This document shows, piece by piece, positions 21,321-29,407 of a stretch of DNA of 34,843 nt; position 1 is the first letter of the stretch; each line of letters opens with the position of its first letter. The stretch is from Hyphomicrobiales bacterium. Lineage in GTDB: Bacteria; Pseudomonadota; Alphaproteobacteria; Rhizobiales; Xanthobacteraceae. The position numbers and the translations under genes are program-made. The notes under the pieces are model-generated. The model saw only the letters and a list, made by a program, of their open reading frames with translations, was not told where the DNA came from and made no database searches. Location of the stretch: contig JAFKKL010000018.1 in NCBI GenBank assembly GCA_017305595.1, positions 1 through 34,843 of the forward strand. Reading direction: 5' to 3'.

Positions 21321-22553
21321 ATGTTAATCGATCGGCGAAAATTCCTTGCAACAACGGGGGCGGCAGCGGGGCTCGCGGGGTTGCCGCGCATGGCGCGCGC
21401 GCAAGTCAAATCGAAGATCAAGCTGGGCATCATCAGCGATCTGTCCGGTCCGAATCGCGACAACAGCGCGCCGTCTTTGGCCTGCGCACAGCAGGCGATC
21501 GAGGATTTCGATGCGAAGAACCGGGGACTGGACGTCGAGGTGCTGGTTGCGGATCACCAGAACAAGCCGGACCTCGCATCGATTATCGCGCGCCGATGGT
21601 TTGACGTCGACGGCGTCGATTGTCTGGTCGACGTTTCGACATCGAACACAGCGCTTGCCGTCAACAGCATCGTCCGTGAGAAGAACAAGGTGATGATGGT
21701 GGTTGGCGCGGCCACTTCCGAATTGACTGGTCCGCAGTGCAGCCCCAACACAGTGCATTGGGCCTACGATACGGTCATGTATGCTAATTCGTCCGCCAAG
21801 GCGATGCTGAAGAAAGGCGGAACGAGCTGGTATTTCATTGCGGCCGACTACGCCTTTGGGCAGGCCATGCGGCGGGATGCCAGCACCGTCATTACGGAGA
21901 ATGGTGGTAAGGTCGTGGGCTCGGTTGCCTATCCATTCCCGGGCACCAGTGATTTCTCGTCGTTCCTGCTGCAGGCGCAGGCCTCTGGCGCACAGGTTCT
22001 CGGCCTCTGTCAGTCGGGTGCAGATACGTTCAACTGCATCAAGCAGATGAAGGAGTTCGGCGTTGATCGTACGATGAAGCCGATCACTCTTTTGATGTAC
22101 GCAAACGAAGTTCGCCGCATGGGACTCGAGGTGGCGCAAGGGCTATTGTTGACGGAAAGCTTCTACTGGGACCTCAATGACAGGACCCGTGCTTTCATGA
22201 AGCGCGTGCGCCCCAAGACGCCGGACAACTGGCCGACCTCGGCAAGCGCCGGCGTCTATTCAAACACGATGCACTACCTGAAGGCGGTGGTCGATATGGG
22301 CCCAGTGCAGGCGAAGGCTGACGGCGCCGCGACGGTTGTTCGCATGAAGGCGATGCCGACGGATGACGATGCTTATGGCAAGGGCAGGATCAGAGAGGAT
22401 GGCCGCAAGATGCACTCGGCTTATCTGTTCGAGGTGAAGAAACCGTCGGAAAGCACGGGAGACTGGGATCTGCTGAAACTGGCTGGCGAAGTTCCGGCCG
22501 AAGAAGCGTTCCGTCCTCTCGACAAGGGCGGATGTCCCTTCGTCAAGGCGTGA
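21321..22553 (+). CDS. Tat-exported ABC substrate-binding protein, branched-chain amino acid/amide type
   Basis: This 410-residue protein has a twin-arginine signal (DRRKFLATTGAAAGLAGLP, cleavage near ARAQ at residue 28) followed by a type I periplasmic binding fold (IKLGIISDLSGPNRDNS, AIEDFDAKN, VVGAATSELTGPQ). Such proteins bind amino acids, amides, urea or aromatic acids for a HAAT-type ABC importer. No matching permeases or ATPases lie in this window, so it is an orphan binding protein here or works with a distant transporter. AAAGGGA precedes ATG 21321. It may capture the pathway substrate outside the cell membrane. Confidence 0.88.
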   Translation: MLIDRRKFLATTGAAAGLAGLPRMARAQVKSKIKLGIISDLSGPNRDNSAPSLACAQQAIEDFDAKNRGLDVEVLVADHQNKPDLASIIARRWFDVDGVDCLVDVSTSNTALAVNSIVREKNKVMMVVGAATSELTGPQCSPNTVHWAYDTVMYANSSAKAMLKKGGTSWYFIAADYAFGQAMRRDASTVITENGGKVVGSVAYPFPGTSDFSSFLLQAQASGAQVLGLCQSGADTFNCIKQMKEFGVDRTMKPITLLMYANEVRRMGLEVAQGLLLTESFYWDLNDRTRAFMKRVRPKTPDNWPTSASAGVYSNTMHYLKAVVDMGPVQAKADGAATVVRMKAMPTDDDAYGKGRIREDGRKMHSAYLFEVKKPSESTGDWDLLKLAGEVPAEEAFRPLDKGGCPFVKA

Positions 22554-25517: not shown

Positions 25518-25567
25518 AAAATTCGCGAGTGTGGCACCAAGTTCTATTCCTATGAACTGGGTGGTGG
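25517..25567 (+). repeat. right copy of 50-bp imperfect direct repeat, reaching the tRNA-Val 3' end
   Basis: It matches 25297-25346. Its last six bases (25562-25567) are the complement of the tRNA CCACCA end, so the repeat lies in the tRNA trailer and reaches into the gene, as attachment sites at tRNA genes often do. Confidence 0.6.
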
Positions 25568-25636
25568 GCGCGACAGGGATCGAACCTGTGACCCCTACCA
25601 TGTCAAGGTAGTGCTCTCCCGCTGAGCTACGCGCCC
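25562..25636 (-). tRNA. tRNA-Val (anticodon GAC)
   Basis: Read on the minus strand, these 75 bases fold as a complete tRNA. The acceptor GGGCGCG pairs with CGCGCCC; the D-arm is GCUC...GAGC; the anticodon stem CUACC/GGUAG surrounds loop UUGACAU with anticodon GAC; the T-arm is ACAGG/CCUGU with a UUCGAUC loop; CCA is encoded. The anticodon reads GUC and GUU valine codons. The 3' end faces the accessory region to the left, the orientation expected if an element integrated at the tRNA 3' end. Confidence 0.97.
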
Positions 25637-26346: not shown

Positions 26347-26706
26347 TCAGGCGGCCAGCAGCTTGGTCACTTCGCTGACCAGCTCGCGCAGGTGCACCGG
26401 CTTGGCCAGCACCTTGGCGTTCTTCGGCGCCGCCGAATCCGAATTCAGCGCCACGGCTGCGAAGCCGGTGATGAACATGATCTTGATGTCCGGATCGAGT
26501 TCCGACGCGCGCCGCGCCAATTCGATGCCGTCCATTTCCGGCATCACGATATCGGTCAGCAGCATTTCGAAAGGCTCCTCGCGCAGCCTCTGATAGGCGG
26601 AGAGGCCGTTGTCATACGAGGATACCTGATAGCCGGCGTTTTCCAGCGCCTTGACCAGGAACCTGCGCATATCGTTGTCGTCTTCGGCGAGAAGGATCTT
26701 GTGCAT
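26347..26706 (-). CDS. cpdR: single-domain response regulator, CpdR-like
   Basis: This 119-residue receiver domain has no output domain. Acidic residues Glu8-Asp10, phospho-acceptor Asp52 (LLTDIVMPEMDG), Thr80 (FITGF) and Lys102 (LAKPVH) are all present, so phosphorylation should work. In Caulobacter, CpdR steers the ClpXP protease to cell-cycle targets when unphosphorylated, and it ends in two alanines linked to its own turnover. This protein also ends LLAA. Adjacency to an N-formylglutamate amidohydrolase gene fits the arrangement I know from other alphaproteobacteria. The orthology is inferred. Confidence 0.8.
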   Translation of the reverse strand: MHKILLAEDDNDMRRFLVKALENAGYQVSSYDNGLSAYQRLREEPFEMLLTDIVMPEMDGIELARRASELDPDIKIMFITGFAAVALNSDSAAPKNAKVLAKPVHLRELVSEVTKLLAA

Positions 26707-27003
26707 GGCGGTTGATTATCGAATCCGGTGAGAGAAACCTAGGCGTTCAGTTAGCCAGAGGTTTGGTAAATTTCGGGTGAAGGTTAAGGACGCAAGCCAC
26801 AATCCCATACCCTTTTCCAAGGGGGACGATTGGGTCGCTGCAACCGGGGAACGTTGAACCCGTCGACTGGACCTATTCCAGACGAAATGCCGGAAACGCC
26901 GTTTTTTCACTTGGCAGGCTGATGGCAAATCCTGACAATGACGGTCGGGCCAGCCTTGATGCCCGGCCGTTCGCCGCGCTCATTTTCAGGACAGCATGCG
27001 CCA
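26707..27003. other. intergenic region between cpdR and N-formylglutamate amidohydrolase
   Basis: This 297-bp divergent spacer presumably holds the promoters of both genes. I found no clear operator. A ggttaagg at 26782-26789 loosely recalls half of a CtrA site but lacks a well-spaced second half. Confidence 0.4.
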
Positions 27004-27891
27004 ATGACCCAGTTTGCCGGCGAACTGTCGCCTCCGTTCACCATCGTCGAGCCGGCGGTCTGGCGCGCGCCGATCATTTTCAACTCGCCGCATTCCGGCT
27101 CGGTCTATCCGCAGGCGTTTCTGGCGGCGTCGCGGGTCGATGTCGCAGCCTTGCGTCGCTCCGAGGATTCGTTCGTCGACGAGTTGATCGCGGGACTCAG
27201 CGCGCAGGGTTTTCCGGTGGTCAGCGTTCACTTCCCGCGCTCCTATGTCGACGTCAATCGCGAGCCTTACGAACTGGACCCGCGGATGTTCAGCGGGCGG
27301 CTGCCCAGTTTCGCCAACACCCGTTCGATGCGGGTGGCAGGTGGCCTCGGCACCATTCCGCGCGTGGTCGGTGATGGCCAGGAAATCTATCGCGAGCGTC
27401 TCGATGTCGATGATGCGCTTGGCCGCATCGAGGCGCTGTACAAGCCCTATCATCGGGCGCTGCGCCGCCTGATCTCCAAGGCGCATCTCGCCTTCGGCGC
27501 GGCGATCCTAGTGGACTGCCATTCGATGCCCTCGGTCGGCGTCTCCCGCGAGGAGCCGCCGCGCCCGGATGTGGTGATCGGCGACCGTTACGGCACCAGT
27601 TGCGCGGCGGTGCTGCGCGATCGCGTCGAGCAGACCTTCGCGGCGTTGGGCTATTCGGTGGGGTGCAACAAGCCTTACGCCGGTGGCTTCATCACCGAGC
27701 ACTACGGCAATCCGGCCAGCGGATTGCACGCCGTTCAGATCGAGTTAAACCGCGCAATCTATATGGATGAGCGCCGTCGCGAGCGTCGGCCGCGGTTTGC
27801 CGCAGTCGCCGAGGATTTCTGCCGGCTCGCCGAAGCTCTGACTGCGTTGCCGTACGGTGATCTCGGGCCATTCGCCGCCGCCGCCGAATAG
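27004..27891 (+). CDS. N-formylglutamate amidohydrolase family protein
   Basis: This 295-residue protein has the family landmarks: IIFNSPHSGSVYP near the N-terminus, RSEDSFVDELIAG, FPRSYVDVNREPYELDPRMF, VDCHSMPS and NKPYAGGFITEHYG. These provide the metal-binding histidine and acidic residues of a zinc amidohydrolase. The family hydrolyses N-formyl-L-glutamate in histidine breakdown or related N-formyl amino acids. Other hut genes are not here, so the substrate is open. I chose ATG 27004 because the conserved part follows closely and AGGACA is upstream; ATG 26938 would add 22 residues. Confidence 0.85.
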   Translation: MTQFAGELSPPFTIVEPAVWRAPIIFNSPHSGSVYPQAFLAASRVDVAALRRSEDSFVDELIAGLSAQGFPVVSVHFPRSYVDVNREPYELDPRMFSGRLPSFANTRSMRVAGGLGTIPRVVGDGQEIYRERLDVDDALGRIEALYKPYHRALRRLISKAHLAFGAAILVDCHSMPSVGVSREEPPRPDVVIGDRYGTSCAAVLRDRVEQTFAALGYSVGCNKPYAGGFITEHYGNPASGLHAVQIELNRAIYMDERRRERRPRFAAVAEDFCRLAEALTALPYGDLGPFAAAAE

Positions 27892-27953: not shown

Positions 27954-27988
27954 AAAGAAAAAGGGCCGCTCGCAAAGGCAAGCGGCCC
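27954..27988 (-). terminator. strong intrinsic terminator (minus strand)
   Basis: An eight-pair outer stem (27963-27970 with 27981-27988) plus two inner pairs around one mismatch is followed on the minus strand by TTTTTCTTT at 27954-27962. It ends the candidate small RNA. Confidence 0.75.
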
Positions 27989-28075
27989 AAGTCTAGGGAG
28001 GAAACGCCCAAGGAGGGCAGCGATAACGCAAGGCGTTACCGCACCGCATCAATATGCGGCCGCAGCGCACAAAAC
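27954..28075 (-). ncRNA. candidate small RNA with anti-Shine-Dalgarno motifs
   Basis: Read on the minus strand, the region forms three stem-loops. They are a six-pair stem at 28044-28059, a six-pair stem at 28024-28038, and a final GC-rich hairpin at 27963-27988 followed by TTTTTCTTT (27954-27962), an ideal intrinsic terminator. Between the last two lie single-stranded-looking CCCUCCUU (28010-28017) and CCUCCCU (27995-28001), both complementary to Shine-Dalgarno sequences. This layout resembles CCUCC-motif riboregulators known from alphaproteobacteria. The 5' end is a guess near 28075. No minus-strand gene upstream would otherwise need the terminator. Confidence 0.6.
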
Positions 28076-28624: not shown

Positions 28625-29407
28625 GTGACGGTCGTTGATTTTACCGCTTTCATTGACCGCCTGGCGACCGCCTCCGGCGAAACCATCCTGCCGTTTTTCC
28701 GTACCTCGCTCGGTATCGAGGACAAAAAATCCAAGCAAGGCTTTGATCCCGTCACCGAGGCCGATCGTGGCGCCGAGGCGGTGATGCGACGGATGATCCA
28801 GGCAAGCTTCCCCCAGCACGGCATCGTCGGCGAGGAATTCGGCAACGAGCGCGAGGATGCCGATTACGTCTGGGTGCTCGATCCCATCGACGGCACCAAA
28901 TCCTTCATCTCCGGCTTTCCGATCTGGGGCACGTTGATCGCGCTGATGCATCGTGGCGCGCCGGTCTACGGCATGATGCACCAGCCATACATCGGCGAGC
29001 GGTTTACCGGCGACAACCGCTCGGCCACCTATCGCGGCGACGGTGGCCAGCGCACGCTGTCGGTACGGCGTTGCGAGAGCCTTGGCGACGCCACGTTGTT
29101 CACCACCAGTCCGCTGTTGATGAACGAGTCAGACCGCGCAGCCTTCACCCGGGTGCAGGATGAAGTGCGGCTCGCGCGCTTCGGCGGCGATTGCTATTCC
29201 TACTGCATGCTGGCGGCTGGCCACGTCGATCTGGTGATCGAGACGGAGTTGAAGCCTTACGACATTGCCGCGCTGATTCCGATCATCACCGGCGCGGGCG
29301 GTATCGTCACCACCTGGGAAGGCAAGCCGGCGCAGCAGGGCGGCCGCATTATCGCCGCCGGCGACCCGCGCGTGCACGAGGAAGCCTTGAAGGTACTGGC
29401 CGGCTGA
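28625..29407 (+). CDS. hisN: histidinol-phosphatase, inositol-monophosphatase-like (HisN)
   Basis: This 260-residue protein of the inositol monophosphatase superfamily has the metal-site residues Glu70-Glu71 (VGEEFGNE), Asp86 and Asp89 (LDPIDGTKSF) and the C-terminal PYDIAALIPIITGAGG. The DPIDGTKSFISGFPIWGTLIAL segment is typical of the HisN type, which dephosphorylates histidinol phosphate in histidine synthesis. A generic inositol or PAP phosphatase is less likely. The start is GTG 28625, with a strong GAAGGAGA upstream. It stands alone on the plus strand. Confidence 0.88.
   Translation: MTVVDFTAFIDRLATASGETILPFFRTSLGIEDKKSKQGFDPVTEADRGAEAVMRRMIQASFPQHGIVGEEFGNEREDADYVWVLDPIDGTKSFISGFPIWGTLIALMHRGAPVYGMMHQPYIGERFTGDNRSATYRGDGGQRTLSVRRCESLGDATLFTTSPLLMNESDRAAFTRVQDEVRLARFGGDCYSYCMLAAGHVDLVIETELKPYDIAALIPIITGAGGIVTTWEGKPAQQGGRIIAAGDPRVHEEALKVLAG

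Follow-up and report, generated by a model that had tools for sequence, protein, structure and literature searches.

The minus strand of the window, a 34,843-nucleotide stretch of a Hyphomicrobiales genome, carries an element that is close to certainly the alpha-r8 small RNA of this genome (RF00519, also called suhB, MmgR or SisA). The RNA is predicted to be ~89 nt long (28042 to 27954, minus strand), as judged by an Rfam match, the start of a conserved hairpin and a T run. In the account that best explains the observations, and that is very probably right as a whole, this alpha-r8 RNA would be controlled by PhaR and would use its seed to repress mRNAs encoding solute-binding proteins and phasin. 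The RNA itself is ordinary: it clearly belongs to a known family that is widely conserved, has been described since 2005 and acts by blocking ribosome-binding sites. What the present analysis adds are signs, in this group, of a double PhaR binding site and of a restraint that the RNA may place on nutrient-uptake genes.

Family assignment and genomic neighborhood

The element matches RF00519 at 28025-27949 at 70.7 bits, the gathering score being 41 (E = 7.4e-13, Rfam), and the match spans model positions 1-77 of 77. The Rfam title of the model is 'Makes More Granules Regulator RNA (mmgR)'; MmgR is the Sinorhizobium meliloti member and SisA-D are the Caulobacter crescentus members (PMC12559287). 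A suhB RNA has already been listed for the related Oligotropha carboxidovorans (PMC3091675), and further literature on the subject is found in PMC2245857, PMC2873474, PMC5596092 and PMC5082802. The first-pass annotation of this DNA had described a candidate small RNA on the minus strand, suggested to be a conserved chromosomal one, with anti-Shine-Dalgarno sequence exposed. The family was not recognized there, and an Rfam search was proposed; the resulting match, together with the synteny and covariation described below, supports the description. Ten matches to RF00519 were found in this genome at E ≤ 1, and only this one lies above the cut-off. Across 41 genomes, i.e., this one and 40 relatives, RF00519 was found above the cut-off in 32 and at E ≤ 0.001 in 36, with no match in five. 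Weak cmscan matches to NmsRb, RcsR1, SNORA76, SorY and sbrA were rejected, each being below its own gathering score.

The next-best RF00519 match in the genome, at 29.2 bits, lies on another contig (L002, G000:C143:7947-8012, minus strand) and has GCGTTTCCTCCCCAGACTTGG and a GC-rich hairpin, then TTTTT. It gave no blastn match among the collected loci, and is possibly a diverged paralogue of the alpha-r8 RNA. Two same-genus genomes have second RNA copies (L056, G004:C1, 56.4 bits; L059, G006:C191, 50.2 bits), which carry the same GCCCTCCTTGGGC hairpin and a different terminator.

On one side of the RNA lies an N-formylglutamate amidohydrolase family gene on the plus strand (26938-27891, PF05013; its score is under the cut-off of the stricter NCBIfam HutG model), and on the other a plus-strand gene for a HisN-type histidinol-phosphatase of the inositol monophosphatase superfamily (28625-29407). 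Beyond the amidohydrolase gene are a minus-strand CpdR response regulator gene (26347-26706) and a minus-strand tRNA gene (25565-25636; RF00005, 68.3 bits). In a tblastn comparison of 30 loci of ~3 kb each, including the window's own, the amidohydrolase was found in 29, CpdR in 27 and the phosphatase in 26, some of the misses being due to a contig end or the end of the retrieved stretch. A pattern scan gave 14 further loci in Afipia, Tardiphaga, Xanthobacteraceae and Hyphomicrobiales MAGs, partly from the same genomes as the 30-locus set; the amidohydrolase is present in 13 of the 14, and the amidohydrolase, phosphatase and CpdR are all absent from L049. Judged by gene order, this conserved neighborhood is the published position of the RF00519 family. 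Most species have a single alpha-r8 copy adjoining the N-formylglutamate amidohydrolase gene (PMC12559287), a usual though non-obligatory placement that is found here too, with the amidohydrolase gene adjacent and the RNA on the opposite strand. In S. meliloti, sm8, which is suhB, is located between SMc04042 and SMc04043, antiparallel to both (PMC2573895), and the suhB element was described as probably a small RNA, encoded on the strand opposite the suhB gene, with a motif that is not bound to specific neighbors (PMC1273637).

Extent, fold and covariation of the RNA

The minus strand from 28075 to 27954, the 122 nt that the first-pass annotation took for the RNA, has a better predicted fold than any of 200 dinucleotide-shuffled versions (z = -4.9). 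Three stem-loops had been read in it. For covariation analysis, 34 of 40 distinct sequences were aligned and trimmed to the start of the 5' hairpin; a truncated copy (L027) and close relatives (L026, L029, L040, L041 and L047) were left out. In the 5' hairpin (28042-28020, minus strand), 8 of 10 pairs are changed on both sides among the 34 sequences and 93.3% of cells are paired; its ascending arm falls outside the Rfam match. A short GCCC/GGGC hairpin with a UCCUU loop (28018-28006, minus strand) is part of the RF00519 model. With 98.5% of cells paired, it is almost invariant in the 34 sequences, and because it hardly varies it gives no evidence of covariation. The terminator lies exactly where it had been placed, with an 11-pair stem (27988-27963, minus strand) in which 7 of 11 pairs are changed on both sides, directly followed by the T run TTTTTCTTT (27962-27954, minus strand). 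Over the whole structure, 80 cells are changed on both sides versus 20.0 (sd 4.8) in shuffles, none of 500 of which scored as high. Relatedness of the sequences can beat shuffles even without structure, and slid partners served as a second control: sliding brought the paired cells from 94% down to at most 55%. Thus, stems and loops are conserved in relatives, a check that had been called for with the original description.

The stem formed by 28060-28043 behaved differently. Pairing there involves 81.6% of cells compared to 80.5% in shuffled versions, with 241 of 500 shuffles as high, and is above the slid versions (seven sequences in both cases). This stem sits on the predicted -10 region and was rejected as a part of the RNA: it is promoter DNA without covariation, as far as seven sequences can tell. 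Of the three stem-loops first read, the hairpin at 28042-28020 and the terminator are therefore borne out by covariation, whereas the stem at 28060-28043 is lost to the promoter, and the RNA is predicted to run from 28042 to 27954 instead of over the full 122 nt. Its predicted 3' end is the T run; the 5' end was derived from the distance between PhaR site and transcription start in S. meliloti, together with the start of the covarying hairpin.

No minus-strand gene that could use the terminator is evident upstream, as had been noted: up to 28625 there are only short open frames without signs of being genes. Alternatively, the stretch might hold no RNA gene at all, the stem-loop being a product of chance and the terminator either spurious or a read-through one. 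Terminator-like sites do arise by chance (two found versus 1.0 expected in shuffles). The family match, the covariation and the synteny speak against a chance origin, which is refuted by conservation and keeps a negligible probability.

Between the GCCC/GGGC hairpin and the terminator lies the seed UUUCCUCCCU (28004-27995, minus strand), an anti-Shine-Dalgarno sequence that is single-stranded, with a mean unpaired probability of 0.98. The 10-mer published for the family has exactly this sequence. The seed is also invariant in the alignment, but the copies were gathered by a 12-base pattern that covers nine of its bases. Two exposed CU motifs had been proposed, and only one holds in full: UUUCCUCCCU is fully open, whereas in CCCUCCUU the CCC is taken up by the GCCC/GGGC stem, so that half of the motif is buried and only the last five bases, UCCUU, are open. 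The element thus has the architecture by which the alpha-r8 family is defined (PMC12559287), i.e., an open 10-mer UUUCCUCCCU following a weak hairpin, then a terminator. Other small RNAs share the anti-Shine-Dalgarno motif. NfeR1 (alpha-r14) has three identical motifs and validated targets that are solute-binding proteins (PMC8844928), and SmelA075 has three hairpins with a CCUCCUCCC loop on each (PMC3927594). The motifs are repeated in these RNAs, whereas here there is one open seed, located between hairpins and not in a hairpin loop. Membership among the CCUCCUCCC-loop RNAs was rejected by this anatomy, with one seed and no identical loops, and Rfam alpha-r14 gave no above-cut-off hit in the window.

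Predicted promoter and PhaR-type operators

Upstream of the RNA we predict a -35 element, CTTGCG (28080-28075, minus strand), which is conserved upstream of the copies, and a -10 element, GCATAT (28057-28052, minus strand), separated by a 17-nt spacer. The upstream regions of the copies have in common a CTTG box and an ATAT-type box; a generic sigma-70 scan found no promoter-like site in the region. Two PhaR-type operators were recognized with the S. meliloti consensus (PMC12542648), here as matches of sequence only. Operator 1 (28075-28055, minus strand) has its core TGCGCTGCG at 28069-28061 and agrees at 9/9 core and 19/21 consensus positions; operator 2 (28054-28034, minus strand) lies over the predicted start, has its core TGCGGTGCG at 28048-28040 and agrees at 9/9 and 20/21 positions. 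The two cores are spaced 21 bp.

Repression by PhaR and its binding at mmgR have been published (PMC7143759, PMC12542648), as has activation of mmgR by NtrC in S. meliloti (PMC7143759). The bound PhaR site in the S. meliloti mmgR promoter is 13 nt from the start (PMC12542648). A similar distance from the window site leads to position 28042, where the covarying hairpin begins, and by this analogy we infer that transcription starts near there. A PhaR site in the promoter is a likeness to the alpha-r8 family, and a candidate site of the MmgR type, between -35 and -10, is present with a 9/9 core match to PhaR (AniA). In contrast to S. meliloti mmgR, for which one PhaR site is listed, there are here two PhaR-type cores 21 bp apart.

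A single core is weak evidence: at least one perfect core is present in 33 of 35 copies, and ~20% of simulated regions also have one. Among 40 distinct upstream regions, at least one core occurs in 38, and pairs of cores 20-21 bp apart occur in 26 (20 bp in 5, 21 bp in 21) versus 0.14% in a Markov control; that control breaks relatedness, and the 26 are not 26 independent events. Fourteen of the 40 regions have no core pair, and nine of these 14 are among the 10 copies from two-copy loci. The double PhaR-type site is, as an observation on the DNA, strong. In the two-copy loci of relatives (L013, L015, L021, L027 and L030), the two RNA copies lie ~170-610 bases apart, and 9 of the 10 are without a PhaR core pair.

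The genome encodes PhaR and three phasins. A PhaR-type core also precedes phaR itself, and a site matching at 21/21 positions stands before the phasin gene at L073 (G000:C112), whereas the other two phasin loci are without such a site. The 21/21 site suggests a direct link from PhaR to phasin in this genome.

Candidate targets and a possible circuit

The mode of action would follow from family membership. Compensating mutations have proven for Caulobacter that this 10-mer represses a leader by pairing with it, and the mRNAs repressed by SisA there form a broad set (PMC12559287). Publications on MmgR deal with phasins and a PHB phenotype (PMC7143759, PMC8401924); the RNA is linked to Hfq in S. 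meliloti (PMC7143759), and the accounts in PMC7143759 and PMC12559287, as far as available, give no direct mRNA target as known.

The seed complement AGGGAGGA stands 3-12 bases before an ATG at 21 places in the genome, compared to one place for the reversed pattern. After dropping L076 (13 codons), 20 frames of at least 60 codons remained, and all were scanned: 13 encode solute-binding proteins (L077, L106, L107, L108, L110, L111, L114-L119 and L123; nine Peripla_BP_6, two NMT1, one SBP_bac_5 and one Peripla_BP_4), one encodes a phasin and six encode other proteins, three of these six having long open frames upstream and possibly being internal. The genome has 82 Peripla_BP_6 matches in total, 79 of them over the cut-off. 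The canonical strong ribosome site AAGGAGG served as control and occurs at 44 places (reversed pattern, 11). Of the 32 places examined, 20 had frames of at least 60 codons; all 20 were scanned and none encodes a solute-binding protein. The difference between 13/20 and 0/20 gives a Fisher p of 1.3e-5, or 1.6e-4 when only the 14 likely-gene control frames are kept, values that are only indicative because the AGGGAGGA pattern was picked after one hit (L077).

The longer AGGGAGGAAA is found at 65 places in 25 genomes, and its reverse at two. Of the 63 places outside this genome, 28 were retrieved and 20 scanned, the eight left out being a 197-residue cytochrome-like frame and seven that were short or doubtful. 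In 12 of the 20 scanned, or 12 of 28 if every left-out frame is counted as a miss, the product is a solute-binding protein belonging to an ABC, TRAP or tripartite transporter. Four of the 12 have 82-99% identity to predicted targets here. Three come from genomes poor in RF00519, two from G029, which has no match, and one from G033, which has a weak match of 28.8 bits, so that something else may lie behind the leader motif. The AGGGAGGA motif before the 13 solute-binding genes could be due to the alpha-r8 RNA or to another regulator. From these leaders we infer, with moderate support, a solute-binding regulon of alpha-r8, and the predominance of solute-binding proteins among the predicted targets is unlike what is published for other members. 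Our literature search, incomplete for MmgR, found no paper that ascribes a solute-binding regulon to the alpha-r8 RNA of this group, and no priority is claimed.

Regulation of this kind is the known work of AbcR RNAs, whose CU-rich seeds block the ribosome sites of solute-binding protein mRNAs (PMC7143759, PMC8844928, PMC5461406). AbcR (alpha-r15) is partly homologous to RF00519 and has three stem-loops, with two CU-rich motifs (PMC7143759), and the predicted targets here would suit an ABC-transporter regulator with CU motifs in the first hairpin loop and between stems. The element differs from AbcR1 and AbcR2, however, in its neighbors, its promoter and its first hairpin: the neighbors are of alpha-r8 type and not lsrB, and the first hairpin is without a CU loop. 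The likeness lies in a CU-rich seed that is predicted to act on ribosome sites of solute-binding protein mRNAs. No match to RF02345 (alpha-r15) was found in this genome at E ≤ 1, and none was above the cut-off in the 41 genomes, with one weak match in G034; 14 control genomes were likewise unmatched and provided no positive control for this search. Membership in AbcR/alpha-r15 was rejected for want of an RF02345 match, and AbcR proper is a very improbable identity for this RNA.

Two roles for an alpha-r8 RNA then have to be weighed. It may keep to the narrow MmgR role in phasins and PHB, with the AGGGAGGA leaders reflecting another regulator or a translation preference. The published MmgR phenotype (PMC7143759, PMC8401924), the one seed-complementary phasin leader and the long-motif solute-binding leaders in a genome that RF00519 does not match all favor this reading, which we regard as a credible one that stops short of being probable. 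Against it, none of the 20 AAGGAGG frames encodes a solute-binding protein, so that the leaders are not accounted for by a general bias toward strong sites, and Caulobacter SisA represses a broad mRNA set (PMC12559287). Alternatively, in Hyphomicrobiales without AbcR, alpha-r8 may have taken over the AbcR role, with a double PhaR operator and a broad solute-binding set plus a phasin; we put this forward tentatively, as something that could well be so while falling somewhat below an even prospect. We offer an AbcR-like function of alpha-r8 in this setting as a proposal, drawn from the leaders, that can be tested.

In the mechanism that we propose for the alpha-r8 RNA, PhaR would repress the RNA gene until storage polymer draws PhaR off. 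Transcription would then start near 28042 and yield the ~89-nt RNA, probably acting with Hfq, and the seed UUUCCUCCCU would pair with ribosome-binding sites of the AGGGAGGA type and stop translation. The likely targets would be mRNAs for transporter solute-binding proteins and one phasin mRNA, and the RNA would tie both nutrient uptake and granule coating to carbon/PHB status. The possible importance lies in this circuit, by which storage-polymer status would reach nutrient uptake in a group where no AbcR RNA was found above the cut-off; if true, stored carbon would set nutrient uptake directly, through translation.

Among the three phasin leaders, one has a seed complement (L075/L121, 8 bases, -15.6 kcal/mol with the seed); the leader of L073 gives -7.9 kcal/mol, and that of L074 ends in AAAAGGGG. 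Duplex energies between the whole RNA and leaders ignore the RNA's own folding and are given no weight. For the best 30 Peripla_BP_6 loci, the leaders rely on guessed starts and were set aside as overly start-dependent. The window itself has a Peripla_BP_6 solute-binding gene on the plus strand (21414-22439), the guessed leader of which has AAAAGGGA and not the long seed complement.
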